The notes beneath the pieces are model-generated. The model ran no database searches. It saw only the letters and a list, made by a program, of their open reading frames with translations, and was not told the DNA's origin. A stretch of 22,926 bases of DNA from a virus. The stretch lies in IMG/VR virus record IMGVR_UViG_3300009152_000224, positions 1-22,926 of that record; one strand, 5' to 3'. How positions within the stretch are numbered: the first letter of the stretch is position 1; each line of letters starts with the position of its first letter. Below, piece after piece: positions 4,632-18,814 of this stretch. Position numbers and translations under genes: made by a program.

Positions 4632-5645
4632 ATGAGCAAATTATTTAATAAAGCGGCCGTATGCACGGACATTCACTGGGGCCTCAAGAGCAACAGTGTA
4701 GTACACAATTTGGATTGTACCAATTATATTAATTGGTTTATAGATACGGCCAAAAAACACGACTGTGATGTTTGTTTCTTTTTGGGAGATTGGAATCATC
4801 ATCGTGCCAGCATTAATATACAAACTCTACAGTTTGGATTAAGAGCATTGGAACGATTGAACGAGTCATTCTCTCAGGTATACTTTATACCAGGAAACCA
4901 CGATCTCTACTATCGTGATCGCAGAGATGTTCATAGTGTAGAATGGGCAAAACACCTGTCTAGAGTTAAAATCATTAATGATTTTGCACACTATGATGAT
5001 GTAGTAATTGCTCCGTGGTTAGTACAAGATGATTGGAAACAGATCAGCAAATATGAAGGCAAGTATCTTTTCGGTCATTTTGAACTTCCACATTTTTACA
5101 TGAACGCACAGGTTGAAATGCCAGATCACGGTGAACTACAATCGGAACATCTTTCCGGCTTTGAGAAAGTTTTTAGTGGGCATTTTCACAAGCGACAGTT
5201 TCGGAAAAATATAACTTATATTGGAAACACATTTCCACATAACTACAGCGATGTAAATGACGATGATCGCGGTATGATGATATTAAAGTGGGGGTCTGAA
5301 CCCGTATTTCTAAGTTGGCCCGATCAACCAAGATTTCGCATCTACAAGCTAAGTGAAATTCTTACTGATGAAACTCTACTACAAAAAGACATGCATGTGC
5401 GAATTAATTTAGATGTTGATATTACCTATGAGGAAAGTAATTTCATTCGCGAACAATTACTTCCAAAATATCAACTACGAGAAATGTCACTAATTCCGTC
5501 TAAAGTGGATCTTGAGCAAGATGATACGGACTACTCAAACATGAAGTTTGAGTCCGTAGATAGTATAATTCAAGAGCAAATACAACAATTATCTGAAGGT
5601 GCATTTGACAAACGACTTCTCCTAGAAATCTATAAAAATTTATGA
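4632..5645 (+). CDS. 47: Recombination endonuclease subunit gp47 (Mre11-like)
   Basis: Encodes the nuclease subunit of the gp46/gp47 complex, the phage Mre11-Rad50 counterpart that resects DNA ends for recombination-dependent replication and host DNA degradation. Metallophosphoesterase motifs occur in order: CTDIHWG (D13, H15 from the chosen start), FLGDWNHHR, IPGNHDLY, LFGHFE and SGHFHKRQ. These supply the metal ligands of the family. The frame is open from ATG 4605, but MSKLFNKAAVCTDIHWG at 4632 is chosen because the first motif normally starts close to the N-terminus and the preceding nine residues look unrelated. No clear ribosome site separates the two starts. The length of 337 aa is close to T4 gp47 (339 aa). 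The stop overlaps the gp46 start by four bases (ATGA), implying translational coupling. Confidence 0.92.
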   Translation: MSKLFNKAAVCTDIHWGLKSNSVVHNLDCTNYINWFIDTAKKHDCDVCFFLGDWNHHRASINIQTLQFGLRALERLNESFSQVYFIPGNHDLYYRDRRDVHSVEWAKHLSRVKIINDFAHYDDVVIAPWLVQDDWKQISKYEGKYLFGHFELPHFYMNAQVEMPDHGELQSEHLSGFEKVFSGHFHKRQFRKNITYIGNTFPHNYSDVNDDDRGMMILKWGSEPVFLSWPDQPRFRIYKLSEILTDETLLQKDMHVRINLDVDITYEESNFIREQLLPKYQLREMSLIPSKVDLEQDDTDYSNMKFESVDSIIQEQIQQLSEGAFDKRLLLEIYKNL

Positions 5646-8600
5646 GTATAAAACTAAAAACACTGCGACTTAAAAATTTTCTAAGCATTGGAAATGTAGA
5701 ACAGGAAATAAATTTTGATCGCAAGGATCTTACACTGATTCTAGGCGAAAACTTAGATTTGGGCGGTGATGGCTCAAGGAATGGTACTGGCAAAGCACAA
5801 CCACTAACTAGTAATATATTAACTCCTCACGGATGGACTCTTATGCGAGATATCAGTGTTGGAGATAGCGTTATTGCTCATGATGGCTCATTAGCCAAAG
5901 TGATTGGAGTATATCCACAAGGAATTAAATCCGTTTACAAATTTACATTCAGAGACGGTCGTACATGTGAGGCAAGCGAAGATCATTTATGGAATGTATA
6001 CAGTCATCTGTTTCGCAATAAAACAGATATCAATCATACAAGAATTCTGACAACACTTGAACTGATTGAACTACTAAATGTAAATTCTCAAAAGAAAAAG
6101 GCGTTTAACTTTTTGTATGTCCCTCTGTATACTCCTAGAGATACAGAGAATGTATCTGTTCCTATTTCTTGTTATACTTTGGGAGCGTTACTCGGAGACG
6201 GACATTTAAAATCATCTGTTGGTATAACATCTGTGGATCAAGAAATACTCACACGAGTAAACGATGAACTACAATTAATTGATTGCTCATTGAGACAATC
6301 ACAGTCAACAACTCGTCCTAAAATTTCATATAGAGTTGTGATGAATCACAGAAAAAATAATCCCAAAAAAATTACTCACCCATTAAGGTCGCGTCTTATT
6401 GATTTAAAATTAAATGTAAACAGCGAAGAAAAATTTATACCAGAAATTTACAAAAATATTAGCGTTTCTCAAAAATTAGAATTGCTTCGTGGATTATTAG
6501 ATACAGACGGCACCGTTGACAGAACCGGATCTATATCTTTTTCTTCTAGTAGCAAGCAACTTGCCATGGATGTAACCGACTTAATTCGTAGTATCGGTGG
6601 AATTGCCAGAATAAGAGAAAAAATACCACGCTTTACTTATTTGAATGAGAAAAAAGAAGGTAAAAAAGCATATATAGTTTTAATTCGCTATCATAATCCA
6701 AAAAAATTATTTTCGTTGTCAAGAAAACTTGACAGGATAAGCGCAGATTATCAATATGCTGATCAACTTCGTCTACAAATATCTGATATTCAAAAAATTG
6801 ACAACTCCGAATGTCAATGTATTGCTATAGATCACAAAGATCATTTATATGTCACTGATAATTATGTAGTAACTCACAATACCACTATATTGCAGGGTCT
6901 AAGCTATGCACTATTCGGTAGCCCTATTAATCAAATTAAGAAAGACAATTTGATTAATAGAACAAATGGCAAACAAATGCATGCCGTTGTTGAATTCACT
7001 GTTAATGATAATGATTATCAGATTGTTCGTGGTCGTAAACCAAATGTGCTAAAGTTCTATGTCAATAACAAACAACAATCAAGTGATGACAATGACGCAC
7101 AGGGTGAAAACAAAGAAACTCAACAAGCAATTGAGCGTATTCTGGGTATGTCCAGTGATATGTTTCAACATATTGTTGGTCTCAATAGCTACACTACACC
7201 GTTTCTAAGTATGCGTGTCAGTGATCAACGCACGATCATTGAACAACTACTTGGAATCACTCTGCTAAGCGAAAAAGCAGATGCTATCAAAGAACTAAAC
7301 AAGACTACAAAAGAAGACATTCAGCGAGAAGAGTTTCGTGTAAATGGAGTTGAGGCGGCAAACAAGCGTATTACTGAACAGATTGACAGTCTAAAGAAGC
7401 GTCAGCGTCTATGGATTGCCAAGCGAGACGAAGACTTGCTTAAGTTAGTAACAGAATACGACCAATTGCAACTTGTGGATATTGGCGCCGAATTAGCGGC
7501 ACACAAAGATTTGGCCGTATGGAACTCTAACAAAGAAAAGCTTGATCGCTATGATGCCGTTTTGGCTAGACAGACTGCATGGAGACAAAAGCTAGACAAA
7601 GAAGTGGCCGCTCTACAGAGTAGCTTGACTAAGCTTACCAAAATTGATATTGCTGCCGAATTATCAGCACACTCTGAACTAGCAATTCACAATACAAAAG
7701 TATCTGAGCGTGAAATCTGGGCTAAAGAATTACAACGAGCAAAGAGCGACGGCGAAAAGCTAGCTAAGTCAGCACAAAAGCTACAAGAAGAAGTACATGA
7801 GCTAGAACAGCATCGTTGCTATGCGTGTGGACAAGAGTTTCACGATAGTAAGCACACCGAGGTATTAGAGAAGAAACGAAAACTTCTAGTAGAGACAAAT
7901 GAAGGCTATGCCGCAGCACATGAATTATGGAACAAGCTAGTAAATAGCGAAGTGATTGTTGGCAATAAGCCCACTACACACTACAACACACACGCTGAAG
8001 CTATTAAGCACAGTAGTGAAGTAGATCGTATCAGCAAGCAAATAGAAGACAAGCTAAGCGAAACTGACCCATATGCTGAGCAACTGTTAGAGAACAGCAC
8101 TCTAGTATTGGGTCCGCAGCCAAAAACACACTATGACACTGAAGAGGCGGCATTTAAGCACAGCAGTCGCGTACAAACACTATTGGATCAAATACAAAAG
8201 AAACACAGTGAAGAAGATCCGTATGCTGAACAAATCGCAGAAATGCAAACTAATGCTATACAAACAGTTGACTTTAGTGAGATCAACAGACTGACCCGAT
8301 TACTACAACACCAAGACTATTTGTTGGATCTATTAACTAACAAAAAGTCATTTGTTCGCAAAAAAATCATTGAACAGAATTTGTCATATTTGAATAACAG
8401 ACTGTCGCATTACTTGGATCGCATAGGATTACCACATCGCGTGGTATTTCAAAATGATTTAAGTGTTGAAATTACAGAACTTGGACGAGAGCTAGATTTT
8501 GACTCACTTAGCAGAGGTGAACGCACTAGAGTTATTTTAGGACTGTCATTTGCATTTCGCGATGTGTGGGAAAATCTTTATCAATCAGTTAATGTAATGT

Positions 8601-8800
8601 TTATTGATGAACTAATGGACTCGGGCATGGACACCGTGGGCATTGAGAACGGTCTTGCACTACTGAAAGACTTTAGCAGAAATAGAAACAAATCGGTATG
8701 GCTAGTAAGTCATCGCGATGAGTTGACCAACAGAGTTAATAACACAGTAAAAGTAGTAAAGGAAAATGGGTTTACAAGTTTGAAGGAATTGGAAGAATAG
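5642..8800 (+). CDS. 46: Recombination endonuclease subunit gp46 (Rad50-like) interrupted by an intein
   Basis: The precursor is 1052 residues; removing the 362-residue intein leaves 690 (T4 gp46 is 560). The N-terminus is an SMC/Rad50-type ATPase half: LKNFLSIGN, then a P-loop split as RNGTGK | TTILQGLSYALFG around the intein. FQHIVGLNSYTTPF follows as the Q-loop region. Long coiled coils flank a zinc hook, CYAC at C726/C729. The C-terminal half has signature LSRGER (956-961), Walker B VMFIDE (985-990) and SHRDEL as the H-loop. It pairs with gp47 from the overlapping upstream gene. Because the intein separates GK from T in Walker A, the precursor cannot be a working ATPase until it is spliced (inference from motif position). 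Confidence 0.93.
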   Translation: MSIKLKTLRLKNFLSIGNVEQEINFDRKDLTLILGENLDLGGDGSRNGTGKAQPLTSNILTPHGWTLMRDISVGDSVIAHDGSLAKVIGVYPQGIKSVYKFTFRDGRTCEASEDHLWNVYSHLFRNKTDINHTRILTTLELIELLNVNSQKKKAFNFLYVPLYTPRDTENVSVPISCYTLGALLGDGHLKSSVGITSVDQEILTRVNDELQLIDCSLRQSQSTTRPKISYRVVMNHRKNNPKKITHPLRSRLIDLKLNVNSEEKFIPEIYKNISVSQKLELLRGLLDTDGTVDRTGSISFSSSSKQLAMDVTDLIRSIGGIARIREKIPRFTYLNEKKEGKKAYIVLIRYHNPKKLFSLSRKLDRISADYQYADQLRLQISDIQKIDNSECQCIAIDHKDHLYVTDNYVVTHNTTILQGLSYALFGSPINQIKKDNLINRTNGKQMHAVVEFTVNDNDYQIVRGRKPNVLKFYVNNKQQSSDDNDAQGENKETQQAIERILGMSSDMFQHIVGLNSYTTPFLSMRVSDQRTIIEQLLGITLLSEKADAIKELNKTTKEDIQREEFRVNGVEAANKRITEQIDSLKKRQRLWIAKRDEDLLKLVTEYDQLQLVDIGAELAAHKDLAVWNSNKEKLDRYDAVLARQTAWRQKLDKEVAALQSSLTKLTKIDIAAELSAHSELAIHNTKVSEREIWAKELQRAKSDGEKLAKSAQKLQEEVHELEQHRCYACGQEFHDSKHTEVLEKKRKLLVETNEGYAAAHELWNKLVNSEVIVGNKPTTHYNTHAEAIKHSSEVDRISKQIEDKLSETDPYAEQLLENSTLVLGPQPKTHYDTEEAAFKHSSRVQTLLDQIQKKHSEEDPYAEQIAEMQTNAIQTVDFSEINRLTRLLQHQDYLLDLLTNKKSFVRKKIIEQNLSYLNNRLSHYLDRIGLPHRVVFQNDLSVEITELGRELDFDSLSRGERTRVILGLSFAFRDVWENLYQSVNVMFIDELMDSGMDTVGIENGLALLKDFSRNRNKSVWLVSHRDELTNRVNNTVKVVKENGFTSLKELEE
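5795..6880 (+). mobile_element. Class 3-type intein with LAGLIDADG endonuclease, in the Walker A loop of gp46
   Basis: Precursor residues 52-413 (362 aa). Boundaries are set by restoring the P-loop: ...NGTGK | A52QPLTS ... VVTHN413 | TTILQ. Residue 1 is Ala, not Cys or Ser. The block B region reads EDHLW (H115, W117), block F reads CIAIDHKDHLYVT (C393), and block G ends T411-H-N. This W-C-T trio with a non-nucleophilic first residue and +1 Thr is the signature of class 3 inteins, where the block F Cys starts splicing. A LAGLIDADG (DOD) endonuclease sits inside: LGALLGDGHL (D186) and LRGLLDTDGTV (D289) are the two catalytic blocks, both intact. The element therefore looks able to splice and to home. 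Confidence 0.88.
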
Positions 8801-9551: not shown

Positions 9552-10010
9552 GATTGTTACTGTGAAATAATGGGTCTATGAAAAAGATAGACTAACACAG
9601 GTCAAACAACAGACCTGTCTAAAATAACTAGTAACATTGTGAGTACAGCCTTTACTGCTCACGGCGAAGCACTGTTGAAGATCGGACAATACTAAGATCA
9701 CAGTGGGTAAACTAGTGGGGAGTGCCGAATAGAGTATGGATGTACTCAATAGATTCGGAACCGATGCTCCCGCCCTTAGGCAAGGCTCTACTGCGCCTGA
9801 CAGATCAACGGGCAAAAAATTAAAGGGTTTTGGTGGTTCAACGAACGTTCTTCCCACAGCGAAAAATAGCTGTCTTCAAAGAACAAGGGGGAGGACCCTG
9901 ATATTTTATCAAATAATTACAGTCAGTTGGCTGTCTCGCTTTGCTCAACAGCCATGTTTGTGTCAGTTCTTCTCGCTGCGCTCTCCGACTGACACAAACA
10001 GACTTCTTTT
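9541..10010 (+). ncRNA. Candidate large structured non-coding RNA (unassigned family)
   Basis: About 470 bases form a string of well-paired hairpins. Paired segments are: TTTCAC-T-GTAA/TTAC-T-GTGAAA (9541-9567); GTCTAT/ATAGAC (9574-9592); ACAGGTC/GACCTGT (9597-9618); GTGAG..CAG/CTG-CTCAC (9639-9662); nested CCGAAT/ATTCGG around GAGTA/TACTC (9725-9758); GCCCTTAGGC/GCCTGA..GGGC (9772-9813); nested GTTCTT/AAGAAC around ACAGC/GCTGT (9847-9884); TGGCTGT/ACAGCCA (9928-9954); and a 13-bp TGTTTGTGTCAGT/ACTGACACAAACA (9955-10000). Composition changes to more GC than the flanks. The two overlapping open frames here have no protein-like character. I cannot match it to tRNA, tmRNA, RNase P or a group I/II intron core. 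Phage-borne giant RNAs such as GOLLD or ROOL are possible relatives, untested. The strand is assumed from the upstream operon; hairpins alone do not fix it. Confidence 0.55.
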
Positions 10011-10028
10011 CAACTAATTTAGTTTTTA

Positions 10029-10216
10029 CTGATATCACTGAAATACATCTGTACAGATATCAGACTACTAATTCATATGAATCACTAAGACATAACTGAA
10101 ATACATCACACACGCATTATTGAGAGATATAACTAAGACATCACTAATATGTCACTAAGATATCTCACTGAAATACGCATCACATATATGGCTGTCATAA
10201 ATCACGGAAATACATC
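10029..10216. repeat. Array of short degenerate direct repeats (iteron-like)
   Basis: Two interleaved motifs recur in an AT-rich, gene-free stretch. Motif A, (C/A)ACTGAAATAC(GC)ATC, lies at about 10036, 10094, 10166 and, as CACGGAAATACATC, 10203. Motif B, (C/A)ACTAAGA(C/T)AT, lies at about 10083, 10131 and 10153, with a weaker copy at 10143. An inverted pair CTGATATC/GATATCAG brackets the first A copy (10029-10063). No open frame crosses it convincingly. Such arrays can be protein-binding sites, part of an origin, or decayed duplications. Confidence 0.55.
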
Positions 10217-10242
10217 TAATTAATATATAACAGAGAGAGATT

Positions 10243-10281
10243 ACAAAAAGAAAAAAGCCAGCACGCCGATAGGCTGCTGGC
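10243..10281 (-). terminator. Intrinsic terminator of the gp26 transcript
   Basis: Read on the minus strand, the stem GCCAGCAGCC/GG-C-TGCTGGC with a TATC loop is followed by TTTTTTCTTTTT. It lies 25 bases after the stop of the -1 frame ORF (10306) and ends the leftward tail transcript before it enters the repeat and RNA region. Confidence 0.85.
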
Positions 10282-10282
10282 G

Positions 10283-10300
10283 AATGGGCTGCAGCCCATT
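10283..10300. repeat. 18-bp perfect palindrome
   Basis: AATGGGCTGCAGCCCATT is a perfect 9+9 palindrome directly upstream (in the minus direction) of the terminator hairpin. In RNA it would form a second, nearly loop-less hairpin; in DNA it could bind a dimeric protein. Its role is unknown. Confidence 0.7.
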
Positions 10301-10305
10301 CTAAA

Positions 10306-10518
10306 TTAGAAGAATGGTAATTTGGTCTTCTTAGTAGTTTCCATATTGGAATCAACTAATTTACTTAGCTGATCCAATTCGTCTTTGCTCAAATTAAGTA
10401 CATCTACATATTGCATGCTACCTCGGGTATACCAAGCCATTTTAATTGCTTGAGCCTTGATGCCAAGTGCTTCATGCCACATGACTTCGCCCAGCTTCTT
10501 CATTTCGGCATGATCCAA
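10306..10518 (-). CDS. Small ORF downstream of gp26, probable -1 frameshift extension (tail chaperone T-like)
   Basis: Encodes 70 residues if started at TTG 10518; the next ATG is codon 6. No good ribosome site precedes it, but the frame is open back to 10542, where it meets the TTTTTTC slippery site at the end of gp26. A -1 shift there joins ...NITDFF to RLKLLSLDHAEMKKLGEVMW, a smooth helical sequence, and gives a predicted 349-residue fusion. The ORF is helical and charged, ending TTKKTKLPFF. Position next to the tape measure gene and the G/GT-type arrangement suggest the extension of a tail assembly chaperone. An independent small protein is the alternative. Confidence 0.6.
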   Translation of the reverse strand: MDHAEMKKLGEVMWHEALGIKAQAIKMAWYTRGSMQYVDVLNLSKDELDQLSKLVDSNMETTKKTKLPFF

Positions 10519-10529
10519 TGATAGAAGCT

Positions 10530-11354
10530 TTAAGCGAAAAAATCAGTGATATTCAATATTAATTGCTGTGTGTACTCATGTGAGCAATGCATGCATTTTA
10601 TATTCAGTGGTTTCAATTGATTTTCGTTTCGCAATTGAACACTGAATTCGCGAATCGCTAAGTTGGTATTTCTATCACAGTTATTCATAAACTCATTAAT
10701 AAATTCTCTCTCGTGTACAGTAGATTCTGGAGTTTTAATGTACTCTACAGTTCCACTAATAATCTCTGAAAAAAGAGAATTCAACTTGGTGATAGTATCG
10801 CGTATTGTTTGTTCCTTTTCAGGACTATCTTCATAAGATTGACTGTCTCGTAGGAATTTTTGTAATTCAAACTGTGCCAGATTGTTTTTGTTTGCTTCTG
10901 CAAATGAAAGTGGTTTGAACTTAATTTCCAATTCTCTGATTTTTAATGTTTTTTCATAGTCAACATTCTGCTGTTGACTTAACACTTGAATTAGACTGAT
11001 ATCGTATGTTGCATCAGTGCTGCAATTTGGACAGACCGTTCCAATCTCCATTTTTTCACCAGTGCTGGCTACTTTGATTGCAATAAGAATAGCGTCCAGA
11101 TCAACACTGTTGATCTCCCATGCGTTTTTAATATTTGGCATGCAGCTATGAATAATATCTACTACTGCGTGTCCGTTAAACACTGCGTCTGGAGTCTTAC
11201 TGGTTATTTCATCCAGTGCAGTCATTGGATAGACTGGTAATTCTCCTGTTTGAGTTGGTTCAATGACGCTTTGATCATAATATTTGTTTTGACTCGGAAG
11301 CTTAATATAAATTGCTGGTCTGCGAAAATATTGCTGTAGTGGATTGTTGGTCAT
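10530..11354 (-). CDS. 26: Baseplate hub / tail assembly protein, T4 gp26-like
   Basis: Encodes 274 residues, beginning MTNNPLQQYFRRPAIYIKLP, the opening typical of the T4 gp26/gp51-type baseplate protein family in T4-like phages. Two Cys pairs, CPNC (C108, C111) and CMHC (C254, C257), could bind zinc. A middle helical part contains KPLSFAEANKNNLAQFELQK. The ATG is preceded by AACAGGACACAAC, a modest ribosome site. It is divergent from the tape-measure-like gene, with a 61-base shared promoter region containing TATTTATT and TATAAGTA sequences that could serve late transcription leftward. The C-terminal codons contain a slippery heptamer. Length is somewhat above the ~210-250 aa usual for the family. 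Confidence 0.8.
   Translation of the reverse strand: MTNNPLQQYFRRPAIYIKLPSQNKYYDQSVIEPTQTGELPVYPMTALDEITSKTPDAVFNGHAVVDIIHSCMPNIKNAWEINSVDLDAILIAIKVASTGEKMEIGTVCPNCSTDATYDISLIQVLSQQQNVDYEKTLKIRELEIKFKPLSFAEANKNNLAQFELQKFLRDSQSYEDSPEKEQTIRDTITKLNSLFSEIISGTVEYIKTPESTVHEREFINEFMNNCDRNTNLAIREFSVQLRNENQLKPLNIKCMHCSHEYTQQLILNITDFFA
10536..10542 (-). promoter_or_regulatory. Putative -1 ribosomal frameshift slippery heptamer
   Basis: The minus strand reads GAT TTT TTC GCT TAA in the gp26 frame, giving the canonical X-XXY-YYZ heptamer T-TTT-TTC two codons before the stop. The -1 frame has a TGA immediately upstream of the heptamer and is then open for 78 codons. The only window where ribosomes could change frame (10530-10542) is thus filled by the slippery site. 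Confidence 0.6.
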
Positions 11355-11415: not shown

Positions 11416-14289
11416 ATGACTACTAATTTTGATCCAGACTCTATTGAAGAAGCGATACGCGGTTTACAAGCTCTAGGTGCGGCTGCTCGCACTACTGGCG
11501 GTTTGGTTCAAAATGCAGTTGAGTCTTCTGTTGGTGAATCAGAGAAGCTAGATAAGAAGAGAAAAGAGTCATACGAAAAACAAGCCGCAGCTATTCAACG
11601 TGTTGCGAATAATTTACTGTCACTGAGTAATCAGTTTCAGCAGGGAGGAGGATCATTTACTGCACTAAACGGTGTCATAGATCTTACTGTAAAGGGATTA
11701 TCATCGCTTGCCGGAATACTTGGGCCTTTTTCTGGCATTGCCAAGGGATTTCTAGAAGCTGGCGGGGAAGTTGCAAAAGAATTAACCAAGAATTTTGACC
11801 GCGCTTACACGATTTTTGAGCAACTATCTGAAGTTGGAACAGTACAGTCGTTTTTAGATTTAAATGAAATCTTAGAACGAACTGGAATGAATTATGGTGA
11901 TAGTGCCAAGACACTAACAAAATTCAGTAAAGAATTAAGTAATTTTGGCGGATCTGCCGTAGCCGGTAGAAAAGAATTTGAACAAATCTCGTCAGAGAGT
12001 AGATTAATGAGACAAGATTTCCAGAAATTGGGAATCGGTGTTGCAGATTTTAATGATATGCAGTTGACTTATATCTCTCAACAAACTAATTGGGGATTAA
12101 GACAGGGTAAACAAACAAAAGACTTGGCAGATGGTACAAAAATTTATATCCAAGAGTTGGATCAATTAAGTAAGATAACAGGTTTGAATAGAAAAGATAT
12201 TCAAGCTCAGCGTGATGCTGCTATGAGTGAGACGCGATTTGCTGCTGCGCTAGCACAATTACCAGAATCAGTTCAAAAATCAGCTAATGATTTGAATATC
12301 ATTATTCAAAAGAGTGCTCCAGACTTAGCTCAGGGTTTTAGAGACATGATGAGTGGATCGGTTACTACTGATGCCGCCAAACAATTAGTTCAACAAACAG
12401 GGGGAGTAGCTGGTGATATTATCGCTCAATTTAGAGCGGGAGCGATAGATCAATTTGAAGCTGATAGACGATTACGAGCTTCGTTAAAACAAACTATTGG
12501 ACCAATGGGACAATTGGGTCAATATATCGGTGATGCAGCACTTTACACTAAATCATTCGCACAAAACAGAAATTATGCTAATCGTGCTGAATTAACTCCA
12601 GAAGAAGTTAAAAAATTATCTGATGAGCAACGAAAAAACTTAAAGGAAACTGAGGGCCAAAATGCAGAGTTGGCAAAAGCAAAACAGTCACTATACAATA
12701 CTGGAGTGACTTTAGAAAAATTATGGACAGCTAGCGATACTGCTACTTGGGCTATTAGTAAGATGGCAAGTGGAGTTGATTTTCTTACCGAAAAATTATA
12801 TGAACTCGCTGGCAAAGAAATTCCGGCTGATGTTAAAGCAAGATTGAAATTAAATGAAGTACTTGATGATGAGCGTAAGGCAAGGTCAACGTTGATAGAT
12901 CAAGAAAAAGAAGTAGACAAACTTAAAAAAGAAAAACACAAACTGGACACTTATGTCCCCCCAGCAGATGAGACAAAAACAGATAAAAATATACGAGAAA
13001 GAAGAATTCAAGATCTTCAAAATCAAATAATTTCAAGTGAAAAATCTTTAGTAGAATTGCGAAAACAACATGAAGGAAAAAAAGATAAAGTCGCAGAAGC
13101 TAGAAAAACAGCAGACGAGGAAACAGCAAAAATAAGACTTGAAGACACGAAAAAAACAGGAGTTGGACAAAACCAGAATTTAGGATCTGGGACAACCGGA
13201 CTAGACAAAAAATACAGTGGATTAAGAATTAAAAGTGCGGAATCTGTTGGTGGAATTAAGAAAGTCCCAGCAGAACAACAAAAAGAAGCAATTGCAAACG
13301 AAGACAAAGTTATTGAATTGATGAAAAAATTCTCCAAGGAGTTCCCTGGTACTACTATTGCTGCTTTTAATGATCTATATCATTGGGACCCAGAAAACAA
13401 GACTGAAACTAGTAAACACAAACTTGGAAAAGCAGTTGACTTTACTATGGACCCAGGACCAGCAACGGCAGAGGACTCCGATAGAATAGTTGCATACTTA
13501 AAAAGTATTGGATTTAATGACGTAAAAGATGCTTATCATAGACAGAAACATGGTACCGGCCCGCATTTTCACGCTGAGTTAATGGCCGCCGGCGGAGTTA
13601 CACGCGGTATATCAATAGCCGGCGAAGCAGGACCAGAAGCAGTTGTTCCGCTACCAGATGGTAGAACAATACCAGTTGAAATTCGTAATCAAGCTAGAAC
13701 TTTAACATTGGATGGAAAAACAATTCCAGTTGAAATACAGAATAAATCGTTACCACAATTCTCTGATCCTATGAGAGTTAATGTAATCAATGATTACAAC
13801 AATTTTGCTGATATTAAGTCAATATCATCTGACATTAGCGAATTAATTCAGAAATTTTCAACAGAAGTTATTCCAGTTGAAATACGCAATCAATCACAGC
13901 AGCAACGAGTGACATTGGATGACAAAACAATTCCAGTTGAAATACGCAATCAATCACAGCAGCAACGAGTGACATTGGATGACAAAACAATTCCAGTTGA
14001 AATTAAAAATAATTATCTTCCAGCATTCGCCGACTCTATGCCAGTTGAGATTCGTAATCAACAGTACATGTCTTCAGTAAAAAATTTAGACAATTTTGAA
14101 ATAGCAAATCTAGCTGAGATATTTAAAAATTCTATATCTGAACTCAAACAATCACAAGAAGCTGCTAACAACAAATTGTTGGAACTGATTGCTCAATCAA
14201 AAATAAACAATGATCATGCAAGAGCTATGAGTGATATATTAAATTCTACTAAAAACATTCAGCGAAATATGTTAAGTAACATGGCTTAA
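11416..14289 (+). CDS. Tape-measure-like tail protein with M15-type peptidase domain
   Basis: Encodes 957 residues. The N-terminal two thirds are helical and Ala/Gln-rich, with a hydrophobic stretch near residues 85-115 (GLSSLAGILGPFSGIAKGFL) and a Lys/Glu coiled coil around 480-570. A zinc D,D/L,D-peptidase module of the M15/hedgehog type follows: SKHKLGKAVDF (H668, D675) and GPHFHAEL (H717, H719) provide the metal-binding pattern HxxGxAxD...HxH. Directly after it comes GGVTRGISIAGEAGPEAVVP, the phrase commonly seen near the C-terminus of tape measure proteins. Then come IPVEIRNQ repeats and a final helix. A tape measure that carries a peptidoglycan-cutting domain would help the tail tip cross the cell wall. 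Its place beside gp26 fits the T4 gp29 role, but similarity to gp29 itself is not evident. Confidence 0.75.
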   Translation: MTTNFDPDSIEEAIRGLQALGAAARTTGGLVQNAVESSVGESEKLDKKRKESYEKQAAAIQRVANNLLSLSNQFQQGGGSFTALNGVIDLTVKGLSSLAGILGPFSGIAKGFLEAGGEVAKELTKNFDRAYTIFEQLSEVGTVQSFLDLNEILERTGMNYGDSAKTLTKFSKELSNFGGSAVAGRKEFEQISSESRLMRQDFQKLGIGVADFNDMQLTYISQQTNWGLRQGKQTKDLADGTKIYIQELDQLSKITGLNRKDIQAQRDAAMSETRFAAALAQLPESVQKSANDLNIIIQKSAPDLAQGFRDMMSGSVTTDAAKQLVQQTGGVAGDIIAQFRAGAIDQFEADRRLRASLKQTIGPMGQLGQYIGDAALYTKSFAQNRNYANRAELTPEEVKKLSDEQRKNLKETEGQNAELAKAKQSLYNTGVTLEKLWTASDTATWAISKMASGVDFLTEKLYELAGKEIPADVKARLKLNEVLDDERKARSTLIDQEKEVDKLKKEKHKLDTYVPPADETKTDKNIRERRIQDLQNQIISSEKSLVELRKQHEGKKDKVAEARKTADEETAKIRLEDTKKTGVGQNQNLGSGTTGLDKKYSGLRIKSAESVGGIKKVPAEQQKEAIANEDKVIELMKKFSKEFPGTTIAAFNDLYHWDPENKTETSKHKLGKAVDFTMDPGPATAEDSDRIVAYLKSIGFNDVKDAYHRQKHGTGPHFHAELMAAGGVTRGISIAGEAGPEAVVPLPDGRTIPVEIRNQARTLTLDGKTIPVEIQNKSLPQFSDPMRVNVINDYNNFADIKSISSDISELIQKFSTEVIPVEIRNQSQQQRVTLDDKTIPVEIRNQSQQQRVTLDDKTIPVEIKNNYLPAFADSMPVEIRNQQYMSSVKNLDNFEIANLAEIFKNSISELKQSQEAANNKLLELIAQSKINNDHARAMSDILNSTKNIQRNMLSNMA
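13871..14003 (+). repeat. 60-bp perfect tandem repeat in the tape measure gene
   Basis: Positions 13871-13930 and 13931-13990 are identical, and a third partial copy (TTCCAGTTGAAAT) follows to 14003. Each unit is 20 codons encoding IPVEIRNQSQQQRVTLDDKT (rotated). Diverged copies with the IPVEI(R/Q)N core occur upstream at about 13670 and 13728 and downstream near 14041. Perfect identity of two copies points to a recent in-frame duplication. Confidence 0.95.
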
Positions 14290-14359: not shown

Positions 14360-17300
14360 ATGTCATATAAACGAAAATTCACAAATCAACACGGTTCACT
14401 AAGTCCAATAAGCGGTATGAACAGTAATACCGGCTCATGGAACGCTGGTATGAATAAAGAACCAACTGGCGGCTGGAACAATGATTTTGCTTTTAGAAAC
14501 TATCAAAGCAGACTGCCAGAAGTCTATACAGGACATCCAAATCGCATAGAGCGATACAATCAGTATGAAATGATGGATGTGGATCCTGAAATAAACGCAT
14601 GTTTGGACATTCTTTCTGAATTTAGTACACAGATGAATGAACACAACAATACGCCGTTTGAGATACAGTTTAATGATGATCCCACTACTACTGAAGTTGA
14701 ACTAGTAGTAAAGCAATTACAGCAGTGGTGTAAATTGAATGAGTTGGACACCAGAATATTTAAGATATTTCGCAACACAGTAAAGTACGGTGATCAGGTT
14801 TTTGTTCGTGACCCAGAAAATTTCAAACTGTATTGGACTGACATGACAAAGGTCGTCAAAGTTATTGTCAACGAGAGTGAGGGCAAGAAGCCTGAGCAGT
14901 ATGTAATCAAAGATATTAATCCAAATTTACAAAATTTAAGTATTGCTGAAAAGACTACTACTGACTTTCAAGCACAGCCACCTACCGCTGGGTACAGTGC
15001 TCCATACAGCTATACTGTTCCAAACGAACCTTATGGAACCACGGGCAGTAGATTTAGCTTGGGTATTAACGAAGCTGCTATAGATGCTAAGCATGTAGTG
15101 CATCTTAGCTTGACTGAAGGACTTGACCGTTATTGGCCATTTGGACAAAGTATACTTGAAAATATATTCAAAGTTTATAAGCAGAAAGAATTATTAGAAG
15201 ACGCTATTCTAATATATCGTGTTCAACGGGCACCAGAGCGCAGAATATTCAAAATAGATGTTGGAAATATGCCAAGTCACTTGGCTATGGCATTCGTTAA
15301 TAGAATTAAAGACGAAATTCATCAGCGAAGAATACCAAGTGTTCATGGCGGACAGAGTGTAATGGATGCTACATATAATCCACTTTGCTTGGATTTAAGT
15401 ACACGAATTCCACTATTGGATGGACGAACTCTGGAATTACAGGAGTTAATTCGTGAGTTTGAATCTGGTAAAGAAAACTGGACCTATAGTTGTGATCCAG
15501 TCACTGGTAAAGTAGTACCAGGTGTAATTAACTGGGCAGGTATTACACGCAAGAACACCGAAGTTATCAAAGTAACACTAGATAATGGAAAAACTTTAAC
15601 ATGCACACCTGATCACAAAATTCCAGTATTCGGCAAAGGATTTGTTGAAGCACAAAATTTGACAGCAGAAGATAGTCTGATAGCGTTCAATGTGAGAAAC
15701 GAAAAAATCAGTGGTGAAAAATCAAGCGAATATCAACAAGTATGGGATCATGAAACTCGCGAGTGGGTGTGGACTCATCGCATGGTAGGCGAGTTTTTTA
15801 GAAAGATTGAAAAACATCAAGAGTATACATATCTTTCAGAAAATATTGGCGCAGAAAAAACAGTAATACATCACCGTGATTATAACAGATTCAATAATGA
15901 TCCGCGCAATCTAACATACATGAACAAGAAGGATCATATACTGTATCACGCTGCACAGGAATCTGATTTTTGGAAAACCATGACAGAAGAATATCGTGCT
16001 GAGCTTACTGGTAAAATTTCAGAAACTGTAAAACAGAACTGGAATATAATGACCGAGCATGAGCGTCATATTGCTCTGTACCGCATTCGTGCAGCGCAGA
16101 CTAAAGCAGTGTGGCTTCGCAATAATGACTCAGAACATGCAGCAAAATATTCAATAAATGCAAGTAAGTCCAGAAAAGAATATATTAAAAATAATCCAGC
16201 TTTTGCCGAGCAACTTAGTAAAAATTTAGAAAACAGAGTAAAGTTTAATAACCAAAAGCTCACGATGACATTTGACATGCTTCAGTTAGTAGTAGAAAAA
16301 GTCAAAGCTCACGGTAAAAACAAAAAGAAAATTATTGATTTGTGTTCAAGCGATGAAAAGCTACTTGAACTTGTAAGACAGCACAACTCTGAGATGAGTG
16401 ATAGTGCTACGCAAAATAAAATTAATTTGAATCAATTTGGCGAAAAGAAAATTAATCGTCTAATTACACAATTCGGATATAAAAATTGGAAACATTTCGT
16501 TAGCTCAATTGAACAGTTTAACCATCGCGTAGTAAGTATTGAGCGAGTTAGCAATCGTGATACCGGCACTATAACTATTGATGGAACCGAAAGATGGCAC
16601 AACTATCATACTTTTGCGATTGATTCTGGAATCTTCATTAAAAACTCAATCAATGAGGACTACTTCTTTCCAGTAACAGCAGACGGTCGTGGTAGTGATG
16701 TTACTACACTGCCGGGCGGATGTTTTAGCATGGATACTAGAGTTTCGTTATTGGATGGCAGAGAACTATCTATTGCTGAAATTGAAAGTGAAATGAAAAC
16801 TGGCAAACAGCTATGGACATACAGTTGTGAGCCACTTACTGGAAAAGTAGTCCCTGGACTAATTACATGGGCCGGCGTAACTAAGCCTCGTGCGAAAGTG
16901 CTAAAGATTACTCTTGATAACGGTGAGCATATTATCTGTACACCGGAACATAAATTTCCAGTATATGAACAAGAATTCAAGCGCGCCGACGAATTTGTTG
17001 TGGGCGACAGTATGATTCCTCTATATAGAAAGAAAGAATATCTTGGAAAAAGCAAAAATGAATATGAACAGTATTACGACAATGAGGCAAAAGAGTGGAA
17101 GTTTACTCACCGAACAGTCGCTGACTATCTAAAAGATACCCTCGTGTGTTATCATGTTCATGATTCGTCCACCAGTAATGGATTGTATGAAGTCAGACAT
17201 CATAAAGACTTCAATAGATTCAACAATGATCCGCAAAATCTATGCTGGATGTCATTCAGTGACCATATCAAGTATCACGCTGACCACAACACACAGCGAA

Positions 17301-18814
17301 TTCAAATTATCAAAGAAAATAATATAAATGAATATAGGAAAATTTGCAAGAATAATTCAATAGCGCAAAAAAAACGATGGGAAAACACAACACCTGAACA
17401 AAAAGAAAACTTTGTCGATGGTCTTAGACAGTTCTGGAGCAATCTTACTGATGAAGAACGCCAGCTCATAACGGACAAGATGAGCGCCTCGATAAAAAAA
17501 TATATTGAATCTCTATCTGAAGATGATCGTGAATCTAGAGCACAAAATTCGCGTGATGCATTCAAAATTGCCTCATCACGAAAACTAGAAAAAATGCGCA
17601 CTGATGAAGAATACCATGCATGGGTTTGTCAGCAGCAGAGTGCAGGGTGGACCGAGAAACTTCGTGAACAACGTGCATATCAAACCAGAGAATGGAACTA
17701 CATCAATTGGAGCGACGAGCGCGGCAAAGAGCGCAAGAAGAAGCACAGTGATAGACAGCGAGTTGAGTATACACATGACATGCTGAAGTTTGTTATTGAT
17801 ATGGTCAAGGGAAAAACTACGCATGAAGTAACTGCTGACAATATCGCTGCTGAATTGAACAAGTCATCTCTACGAGATAAGTTAGTTGAACTGAACAAAG
17901 ATAAACAAGTTCGTAACTGGAAGGTTGAAGAAGGGTTCACTCCAGGAAACATCAGACGTTCACTAGTGCAACAAATTGGATATAAGTCATGGAAAGACTT
18001 TCGTGTGAAAGAAAGCGTGCACAATCACCGAGTAGCTGCCCTTGAGTGGTTAGAAGAAGAGATCTCAGTTGGCACGTTGACAATTGACGGCGATGAAATA
18101 TATCATGATTATCATACTTTTGCCCTGAGCGTTGGCGTATTTACGAAAAATAGCAATCTAGGGGAAATAGATGATCTTAGATACTTCAACAACAGACTTG
18201 CACGAGGATTGCGTGTACCAAGTAGTTATCTACCAACTGGTCCAGAAGATAGTGAGCGACCATTAGTAGACGGAAAAGTAGGAACTGCACTAATACAAGA
18301 GTATCGTTTCAATCAATATTGTGAGCGTTTGCAGGGTTACATTGCTCGCAAATTGAATGAAGAGTTCAAGTTATTCTTACGCTGGCGTGGATTCAATATA
18401 GACGCTGGTTTATTTGATTTAAAATTTAACCCCCCTCAAAATTTCGCAGCGTATCGTCAAAGTGAAATTGATCAAGTCAGAGTAAATGTGTTTAATTCAG
18501 TGGCACAGCTACCATACATATCTACTAGATTTGCAATGGAAAGATTTTTGGGCCTAAGTCAAGAAGAAATAAAGAAGAACGAGAAGTTATGGCATGAAGA
18601 GCGTAGTAAACCAGAAGACGAAGAAAAAACAGCAAAGGGCACAGATTTGCGTAGTATTGGACTAAGCACTAGTGACATTGAAAGTGACACCGAAACGGCA
18701 GAAAATATTCCTCCAGAGGGTCAAGAGCAGATGCCAGGTATCTCTCCAGAAGTTACTGCTCCAGTGGGTGCACCGCCAGCAGTTGGCCCAGAGACTGCTC
18801 CTCCCGCAATATAA
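14360..18814 (+). CDS. 20: Portal vertex protein gp20 carrying two inteins
   Basis: The precursor is 1484 residues. Removing residues 343-762 and 788-1264 leaves a 587-residue portal, in the usual range (T4 gp20 is 524). Extein landmarks match gp20: IERYNQYEMMDVDPEINACL near the N-terminus, NTVKYGDQVF, a block ending RRIPSVHGGQSVMDATYNPL, then SINEDYFFPVTADGRGS, TTLPGG and SNLGEIDDLRYFNNRLARGL, corresponding to T4 SMSEDFFF...DGRGS...LPGGQNLGEIEDL. The C-terminus is an acidic, Pro-rich tail. The portal ring occupies one capsid vertex, nucleates prohead assembly and is the DNA gateway. Both inteins interrupt the most conserved part, so head assembly depends on two correct splicing events. Confidence 0.93.
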   Translation: MSYKRKFTNQHGSLSPISGMNSNTGSWNAGMNKEPTGGWNNDFAFRNYQSRLPEVYTGHPNRIERYNQYEMMDVDPEINACLDILSEFSTQMNEHNNTPFEIQFNDDPTTTEVELVVKQLQQWCKLNELDTRIFKIFRNTVKYGDQVFVRDPENFKLYWTDMTKVVKVIVNESEGKKPEQYVIKDINPNLQNLSIAEKTTTDFQAQPPTAGYSAPYSYTVPNEPYGTTGSRFSLGINEAAIDAKHVVHLSLTEGLDRYWPFGQSILENIFKVYKQKELLEDAILIYRVQRAPERRIFKIDVGNMPSHLAMAFVNRIKDEIHQRRIPSVHGGQSVMDATYNPLCLDLSTRIPLLDGRTLELQELIREFESGKENWTYSCDPVTGKVVPGVINWAGITRKNTEVIKVTLDNGKTLTCTPDHKIPVFGKGFVEAQNLTAEDSLIAFNVRNEKISGEKSSEYQQVWDHETREWVWTHRMVGEFFRKIEKHQEYTYLSENIGAEKTVIHHRDYNRFNNDPRNLTYMNKKDHILYHAAQESDFWKTMTEEYRAELTGKISETVKQNWNIMTEHERHIALYRIRAAQTKAVWLRNNDSEHAAKYSINASKSRKEYIKNNPAFAEQLSKNLENRVKFNNQKLTMTFDMLQLVVEKVKAHGKNKKKIIDLCSSDEKLLELVRQHNSEMSDSATQNKINLNQFGEKKINRLITQFGYKNWKHFVSSIEQFNHRVVSIERVSNRDTGTITIDGTERWHNYHTFAIDSGIFIKNSINEDYFFPVTADGRGSDVTTLPGGCFSMDTRVSLLDGRELSIAEIESEMKTGKQLWTYSCEPLTGKVVPGLITWAGVTKPRAKVLKITLDNGEHIICTPEHKFPVYEQEFKRADEFVVGDSMIPLYRKKEYLGKSKNEYEQYYDNEAKEWKFTHRTVADYLKDTLVCYHVHDSSTSNGLYEVRHHKDFNRFNNDPQNLCWMSFSDHIKYHADHNTQRIQIIKENNINEYRKICKNNSIAQKKRWENTTPEQKENFVDGLRQFWSNLTDEERQLITDKMSASIKKYIESLSEDDRESRAQNSRDAFKIASSRKLEKMRTDEEYHAWVCQQQSAGWTEKLREQRAYQTREWNYINWSDERGKERKKKHSDRQRVEYTHDMLKFVIDMVKGKTTHEVTADNIAAELNKSSLRDKLVELNKDKQVRNWKVEEGFTPGNIRRSLVQQIGYKSWKDFRVKESVHNHRVAALEWLEEEISVGTLTIDGDEIYHDYHTFALSVGVFTKNSNLGEIDDLRYFNNRLARGLRVPSSYLPTGPEDSERPLVDGKVGTALIQEYRFNQYCERLQGYIARKLNEEFKLFLRWRGFNIDAGLFDLKFNPPQNFAAYRQSEIDQVRVNVFNSVAQLPYISTRFAMERFLGLSQEEIKKNEKLWHEERSKPEDEEKTAKGTDLRSIGLSTSDIESDTETAENIPPEGQEQMPGISPEVTAPVGAPPAVGPETAPPAI
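15386..16645 (+). mobile_element. Portal intein 1 with HNH endonuclease
   Basis: Precursor residues 343-762 (420 aa), between DATYNPL and SINEDYFF. It starts C343 (CLDLSTRIPLLDG, block A), has block B TCTPDHKIPV with the T..H pair, block F HNYHTFAIDSG, and ends IFIKN followed by Ser +1. The penultimate residue is Lys rather than the usual His. An HNH homing endonuclease lies inside: VIHHRDYNRFNNDPRNLTYM, followed by DHILYHA and Lys/Arg-rich helices likely to bind DNA. It is clearly related to portal intein 2. Confidence 0.92.
16721..18151 (+). mobile_element. Portal intein 2 with HNH endonuclease
   Basis: Precursor residues 788-1264 (477 aa), between TTLPGG and SNLGEIDD. It starts C788 (CFSMDTRVSLLDG), with block B CTPEHKFPVY, block F HDYHTFALSVG and end VFTKN followed by Ser +1, again with Lys instead of penultimate His. 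The HNH core reads VRHHKDFNRFNNDPQNLCWM then DHIKYHA. Shared phrases with intein 1 (LWTYSCEPLTGKVVPG against NWTYSCDPVTGKVVPG; YKSWKDF against YKNWKHF) show common descent. It is longer through extra residues in the helical region after the HNH. Confidence 0.92.

Follow-up and report, generated by a model that had tools for sequence, protein, structure and literature searches.

A probable programmed -1 frameshift at the end of a gp26-like gene, and its relation to the T4 gp26 and gp51 proteins

In phage lambda, the tail assembly chaperones G and GT are linked by a -1 slip that takes place close to the end of the gene for the short chaperone, a neighbour of the tape measure gene, and a review of the subject describes this G/GT frameshift as widely conserved in long-tailed phages "except T4" (PMC5009743). 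In the tail assembly chaperones (TAC) of the Vandenendeviridae and Andersonviridae, represented by phage Adele, the short chaperone gene (TAC-N) likewise ends in a T-run motif, GTTTTT, at which a -1 frameshift is conserved; the passages of that paper that deal with the TAC frameshift make no mention of a stimulatory RNA structure (PMC12846349). For T4-like phages, the same passages report poly-T slippery sites in TAC-N genes, with reference to Vladimirov, Gautam and Davidson (Virology 2022, 566:9), and a passage in a second paper citing that work states that some T4-like phages have separate short and longer fused genes (PMC10885494). Outside phage tails, the E. coli dnaX gene combines a heptamer of one repeated base with a downstream hairpin, as is the case at the site described here (PMC3711429). 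The central idea of the present analysis, that T4-type gp26 and gp51 are tail assembly chaperones and that a frameshift is involved, is already in the literature. Vladimirov, Gautam and Davidson reportedly identified the tail assembly chaperone genes of T4-like phages in 2022, and their abstract is said to name genes 26 and 51 and to state that several T4-like groups have retained frameshifting. The interest that remains lies in the breadth of the arrangement among jumbo-phage relatives, in the mis-annotated small genes that it explains and in a covarying hairpin behind the slip site.

The sequence analysed is a 22,926-base virus record (IMG/VR IMGVR_UViG_3300009152_000224), the whole of which is referred to below as the window. 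This 22.9-kb genome fragment contains one gp26 match, and the features relevant to it are as follows.

10530..11354, minus strand: gp26-like gene, putative short tail assembly chaperone (TAC-N), 274 aa (PF12322, PHROG 150)
10536..10542, minus strand: slippery heptamer T TTT TTC, read GAT TTT TTC in the 0 frame and TTT TTT C after a -1 shift
10530..10532, minus strand: 0-frame stop TAA, within the 6-nt spacer that separates heptamer and hairpin
10493..10529, minus strand: hairpin, proposed frameshift stimulator, with 5' arm 10529-10523 (AGCTTCT) and 3' arm 10499-10493 (AGAAGCT)
10306..10542, minus strand: -1 frame ORF, 78 codons plus stop, putative C-terminal part of the long chaperone (TAC-NC)
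10257..10281, minus strand: intrinsic-terminator-like hairpin followed by TTTTTT (10256-10251), about 25 nt 3' of the -1 ORF stop
11416..14289, plus strand: divergent 957-aa gene between gp26 and the portal gene, tape-measure-like by gene order and by the motif AGEAGPEAVVPL

The gp26-like protein matches Pfam family PF12322 (T4_baseplate, "T4 bacteriophage base plate protein") with an E value of 9.6e-17 and a score of 61.8 bits against a curated cut-off of 24.5, and it also matches PHROG 150 (baseplate hub); the Pfam family is matched by 42 of 43 aligned gp26 sequences. Direct reading of the sequence gives GAT TTT TTC GCT TAA as the 3' end of the gp26 frame, in agreement with an initial annotation of the window that had the gene ending on a slippery T-TTT-TTC. 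The heptamer, at 10542-10536, begins 10 nt upstream of the 0-frame stop and stands in the X XXY YYZ phase needed for tandem -1 slippage. As that annotation had also stated, the -1 frame opens at the heptamer, with a TGA at 10545-10543 immediately upstream and 78 open codons down to 10306, and the lengths given for the joined protein (273 + 76 = 349 residues) agree with ours. The GC-rich stem of the terminator-like hairpin folds at -18.4 kcal/mol and can be recognised from the sequence as well as from its folding, though it is absent from a consensus terminator scan; a second palindrome lies close to it at 10282-10301. Because this stem and its six T follow so shortly after the -1 stop, the transcript probably ends just past the -1 ORF and not past gp26. 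Behind the terminator, an AT-rich stretch (window 9990-10255) contains near-copies of GATGTATTTCAGTGA and TCTTAGTGAT and no evident gene.

The locus resembles each of the described systems in part. It shares the PF12322 family and the logic of short and long forms with the T4-like TAC-N/TAC-NC (gp26, gp51), and a T-run frameshift ending TAC-N with the Adele system, although the phage lineages are different. The lambda pair lies beside the tape measure gene, whereas the pair in the window is divergent from its tape-measure-like neighbour. The lambda heptamer, GGGAAAG, is unlike the T TTT TTC of the window. The dnaX site differs in using A AAA AAG and an upstream Shine-Dalgarno stimulator, which the window family lacks.

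It is very probable, judging from the nucleotide and protein comparisons presented below, that gp26 is the short chaperone and that a -1 slip at T TTT TTC, probably aided by the hairpin, yields a long form, the two acting as G and GT do. We infer that a minority of ribosomes at U UUU UUC would move back by one base, so that the P-site and A-site Phe-tRNAs, first paired with UUU-UUC, re-pair with UUU-UUU. These ribosomes would miss the UAA three bases on and add 76 residues to give the long form (GT-like, TAC-NC, 349 aa), and the hairpin 6 nt past the heptamer would probably slow the ribosome and raise the rate of shifting. The short (G-like, TAC-N) and long forms would together cover the tape measure protein and bring in tail tube subunits, in the manner of lambda G/GT. 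The initial annotation had likewise proposed a programmed -1 frameshift, and the comparative evidence supports it: the heptamer is near-invariant, the -1 frame is conserved, a start site of its own is rare and a covarying hairpin lies downstream.

To assess how widely the arrangement is conserved, we searched IMG/VR with gp26, which gave 80 loci, and with the 78-aa -1 ORF, which gave 74 loci, and added 18 named phages, for 174 rows in all, with the window present twice (WIN, L001). The named phages include Sinorhizobium Phosso, Agrobacterium Atu_ph07, Pseudomonas PA5oct and PAC2, Klebsiella RaK2, Escherichia 121Q, Cronobacter GAP32, Pectobacterium CBB, Serratia BF, Salicola SCTP-2 and Vibrio 2.275.O. 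Two rows run off their contig, and among the 172 readable rows the heptamer is T TTT TTC in 170 and TTTTTTT in 2, in the same phase and with the -1 frame open throughout. The same heptamer and -1 ORF are thus found in the gp26 homologues, where the initial annotation had suggested looking for them, and the relatives lack the single uninterrupted ORF that a miscalled T-run would predict. All 78 loci that were retrieved by gp26 interior peptides alone and are long enough to show the gene end have the heptamer, so the result is not due to searching with the -1 ORF. The two TTTTTTT rows are XacN1 and CM1 (L165, L168), the sole such relatives in the clade, and their 0-frame stop lies 30-33 nt past the heptamer.

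Removal of identical -1 ORFs left a non-redundant set of 124 sequences. In counts that come from related sequences and hence do not represent independent events, the base preceding the two Phe codons is T in 124/124, against about 69 expected from codon use, even though C, A or G in its place would in many cases leave the protein unchanged; TTT is the first Phe codon in 124/124 and TTC the second in 122/124, against 988 TTT to 354 TTC for other Phe codons; and an in-phase TTTTTTC occurs elsewhere in these gp26 genes at 3 of 35,471 codon positions. The 0-frame stop starts 3 nt past the heptamer in 75 of the 124 sequences and 12 nt past it in 36. These data confirm that the slip-site arrangement is neither chance nor a miscalled T-run.

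The -1 frame is open for 68-82 codons wherever the DNA of the relatives reaches far enough, and the ORF is 78 aa long in 105/124. Across 48 moderately related pairs, substitutions at -1-frame codon positions 1, 2 and 3 number 534, 273 and 1127, a pattern by which the -1 ORF is judged to evolve as protein. In an alignment of 53 -1 ORF sequences, F1, F2, R3, W37, R40 and G41 show no variation and the terminal ETTKKTGLPFF is highly conserved; with invariant residues from F1, F2 and R3 on, conservation starts at the slip site itself. An AlphaFold2 model of the -1 domain is mainly helical, with four helices (mean pLDDT 91.4), and gp26 was modelled with a mean pLDDT of 89.5. Foldseek searches with the model gave other T4-type baseplate hub/gp26 proteins among the predicted viral proteins of BFVD (best E 8.5e-25), and nothing significant from the PDB. 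Structural comparison with the HK97 tail assembly chaperone 2ob9 (Z 5.7, 87/104 residues aligned, rmsd 5.6) and with YqbN 3klu (Z 6.5, 85/119 aligned, rmsd 3.0) gave values within the range of unrelated rows. PDB sequence matches to the gp26 and -1 ORF profiles were rejected as chance helical matches.

The connection to T4 runs through Sinorhizobium phage phiM12. In this phage, gp26 is followed 8 bases on by a 53-codon gene annotated gp51, with a tape-measure-like gene one gene beyond "gp51"; its gp26 terminates in T TTT TTT, with a -1 frame that continues into the "gp51" piece. Viral contigs resembling phiM12 have the same arrangement, giving 42 distinct -1 extensions in all. In profile comparisons, the window-clade fusion of gp26 and -1 ORF matches the phiM12-like fusion with an E value of 4e-24, T4 gp51 matches the phiM12-like fusion over the gp51 length, including the -1 part, with an E value of 3e-24, and T4 gp26 matches it with an E value of 1e-22 in an alignment whose last positions are the two slip-site Phe. 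Taken by itself, the -1 domain of the window clade matches that of the phiM12-like loci weakly (E 0.0085, low probability). The window clade also gives a weak match when compared directly with T4 gp51, and the link goes via the phiM12-like fusion.

Both T4 proteins belong to PF12322, which scores 215.6 bits over residues 1-206 of the 208 of gp26 and 177.5 bits over residues 1-201 of the 249 of gp51. Since the family span ends at residue 201, T4 gp51 can be described as a gp26-like protein with an added C-terminal domain. The end of T4 gp26, GAGTTCTTTGAGTTACTATAA, is without the slippery heptamer; T4 has separate genes for the short and long forms, whereas the window has one gene with a slip site. 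On this homology via the phiM12-like fusion, gp26 would be the short chaperone, and the long one would be the product of the frameshift. The suggestion that the gp26 family is the T4-type counterpart of G/GT is strengthened by the shared PF12322 membership and by the alignment of gp51 with the fusion. The locus and its relatives are in keeping with the more recent view of a frameshift in T4-type phages for which the T4 group substituted two genes, 26 and 51.

Downstream of the heptamer, the hairpin in the window has a minimum free energy of -12.2 kcal/mol, and the region has a z score of -4.1 against synonymous-codon shuffles. If the first T of the heptamer is taken as position 0, the folding energy over +12 to +92 lies below that of dinucleotide shuffles (mean z -2.57 in 91 sequences), as compared to -0.1 and -0.4 for control stretches. 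When the comparison is with synonymous shuffles, in which the -1 protein is left intact and codons are sampled from the same genes, the 103 sequences average z -3.0 (s.e.m. 0.19), and 68 of them fall below -2. In most sequences the 5' arm begins between +10 and +13, 3-6 nt past the heptamer. The 3' arm lies at about +67 to +83 in 38 sequences (alignment A3, e.g. TAAGGCTTTTGTCTCT / AGAGACAAAAGCCTTA) and at +42 to +49 in the class of the window, and in other sequences it ends near +43, +61, +73 or +95. Alignment A3 has a covariation score of 0.214, against 0.107 +/- 0.010 when shuffled (0/500) and at most 0.093 when the partner arm is slid, and contains 45 cells changed on both sides; the class of the window scores 0.247 against 0.148 +/- 0.019. 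Hairpin classes were picked by best register, which biases the percentage of paired cells upward, whereas the folding-energy test against synonymous shuffles is unbiased. The phiM12-like loci, too, have folding energies below those of synonymous shuffles (mean z -1.76 in 42 sequences, s.e.m. 0.25), and their stems are more heterogeneous. Some members (e.g. L028, L115, L121 and L137) and several enterobacterial jumbo phages have a weak hairpin or none. An upstream Shine-Dalgarno-like stimulator is present in only 2 of 91 sequences, and an Rfam search of the window returned no family.

A fixed 5' arm together with a 3' arm that differs by lineage would mean that the RNA element had been rebuilt repeatedly inside coding sequence. 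We lean towards the interpretation that this is a selected stimulatory hairpin, its 5' arm held 3-6 nt past the heptamer and its 3' arm dependent on lineage (e.g. ending at about 45, 60 or 83 nt from the first base of the heptamer). As such it is a concrete candidate stimulator and an RNA structure that has apparently moved within the coding region. No description of the hairpin was found in the literature searched, where Vladimirov et al. 2022 is represented by the papers that cite it; the hairpin may therefore be a new detail and, if the interpretation is true, the first such stimulator described for T4-type tail chaperone genes.

The -1 ORF could also be a separate small gene for a free gp51-like protein, expressed from its own start or by re-initiation past the gp26 stop. 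Annotators do call a small ORF there in most named phages, and the first ATG falls at -1-frame codon index 20 in 43/124 sequences. The position of the start is nevertheless not conserved: a start codon with a Shine-Dalgarno sequence within the first 26 codons, such as would have spoken against the initial annotation, occurs in only 6/124, and 25/124 have no start of any kind up to codon index 20. In the window, a TTG and two ATGs occur among the first 21 codons of the -1 piece, and no Shine-Dalgarno sequence goes with any of them. A separate gene would further leave unexplained a near-invariant slippery heptamer with a silent T, protein conservation that begins at the slip site, ahead of most starts, and the fusion of the -1 part in T4 gp51, and we consider it very unlikely. 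The small genes annotated past gp26 in 121Q (gene 595), GAP32 (GAP32_242), CBB (CBB_249), BF (BF_0247), SCTP-2 (gene 87), Phosso, XaC1 (XaC1_326), Vibrio 2.275.O and phiM12 ("gp51") have their stop codon in exactly the position of the -1 stop. Such "hypothetical" or "gp51" genes, as annotated in those jumbo and phiM12-type phages that were checked, are probably the ends of frameshift products and not separate genes.

A site made of six T is also where RNA polymerase might slip, giving an mRNA with an extra U and the same fusion without ribosomal slippage. Efficient transcriptional slippage usually requires longer runs, and here the run is held at six and closed by C in 122/124 sequences, even though TTT would be silent and would lengthen it. 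The phase of the heptamer suits tandem tRNA slippage, and the hairpin lies near the usual spacing of ribosomal stimulators, making slippage in transcription less likely still than a separate gene. That the true gene is one ORF, broken by a sequencing or assembly error, is suggested by the homopolymer, but the same run and the same two frames recur in 18 cultured-phage loci and more than 150 metagenome contigs, and the conserved C and T and the covarying hairpin cannot come from such an error, the probability of which is negligible.

The initial annotation placed the gp26 pair beside the tape measure gene. A divergent 957-aa gene does occupy this place, and the order portal, large gene, gp26 is conserved in most named jumbo phages. 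Gene order and motif make it likely that the 957-aa protein is the tape measure; searches of Pfam and PHROG, as well as further searches, gave no match to a tape measure family. The protein also contains an HxxGxAxD...H.H stretch resembling an M15-type peptidase and repeated PVEIRNQ segments. In Vibrio phage 2.275.O (L161 1-3970), gp26 shares its annotated strand with the two genes upstream of it, as opposed to the divergent order in other jumbo phages.

Two other genes of the window carry insertions. The portal protein gene (T4 gp20, PF07230; 1484 aa, 14360-18814, plus strand) is interrupted, with an intein splicing domain (PF14890) and HNH endonuclease motifs, which suggests that it holds one or two inteins. 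The SbcC-like gp46 subunit (1052 aa, 5642-8800, plus strand) has an intein with a LAGLIDADG homing endonuclease at residues about 45-420, and this region also matches terminase and primase PHROGs, probably through the inteins of those proteins.
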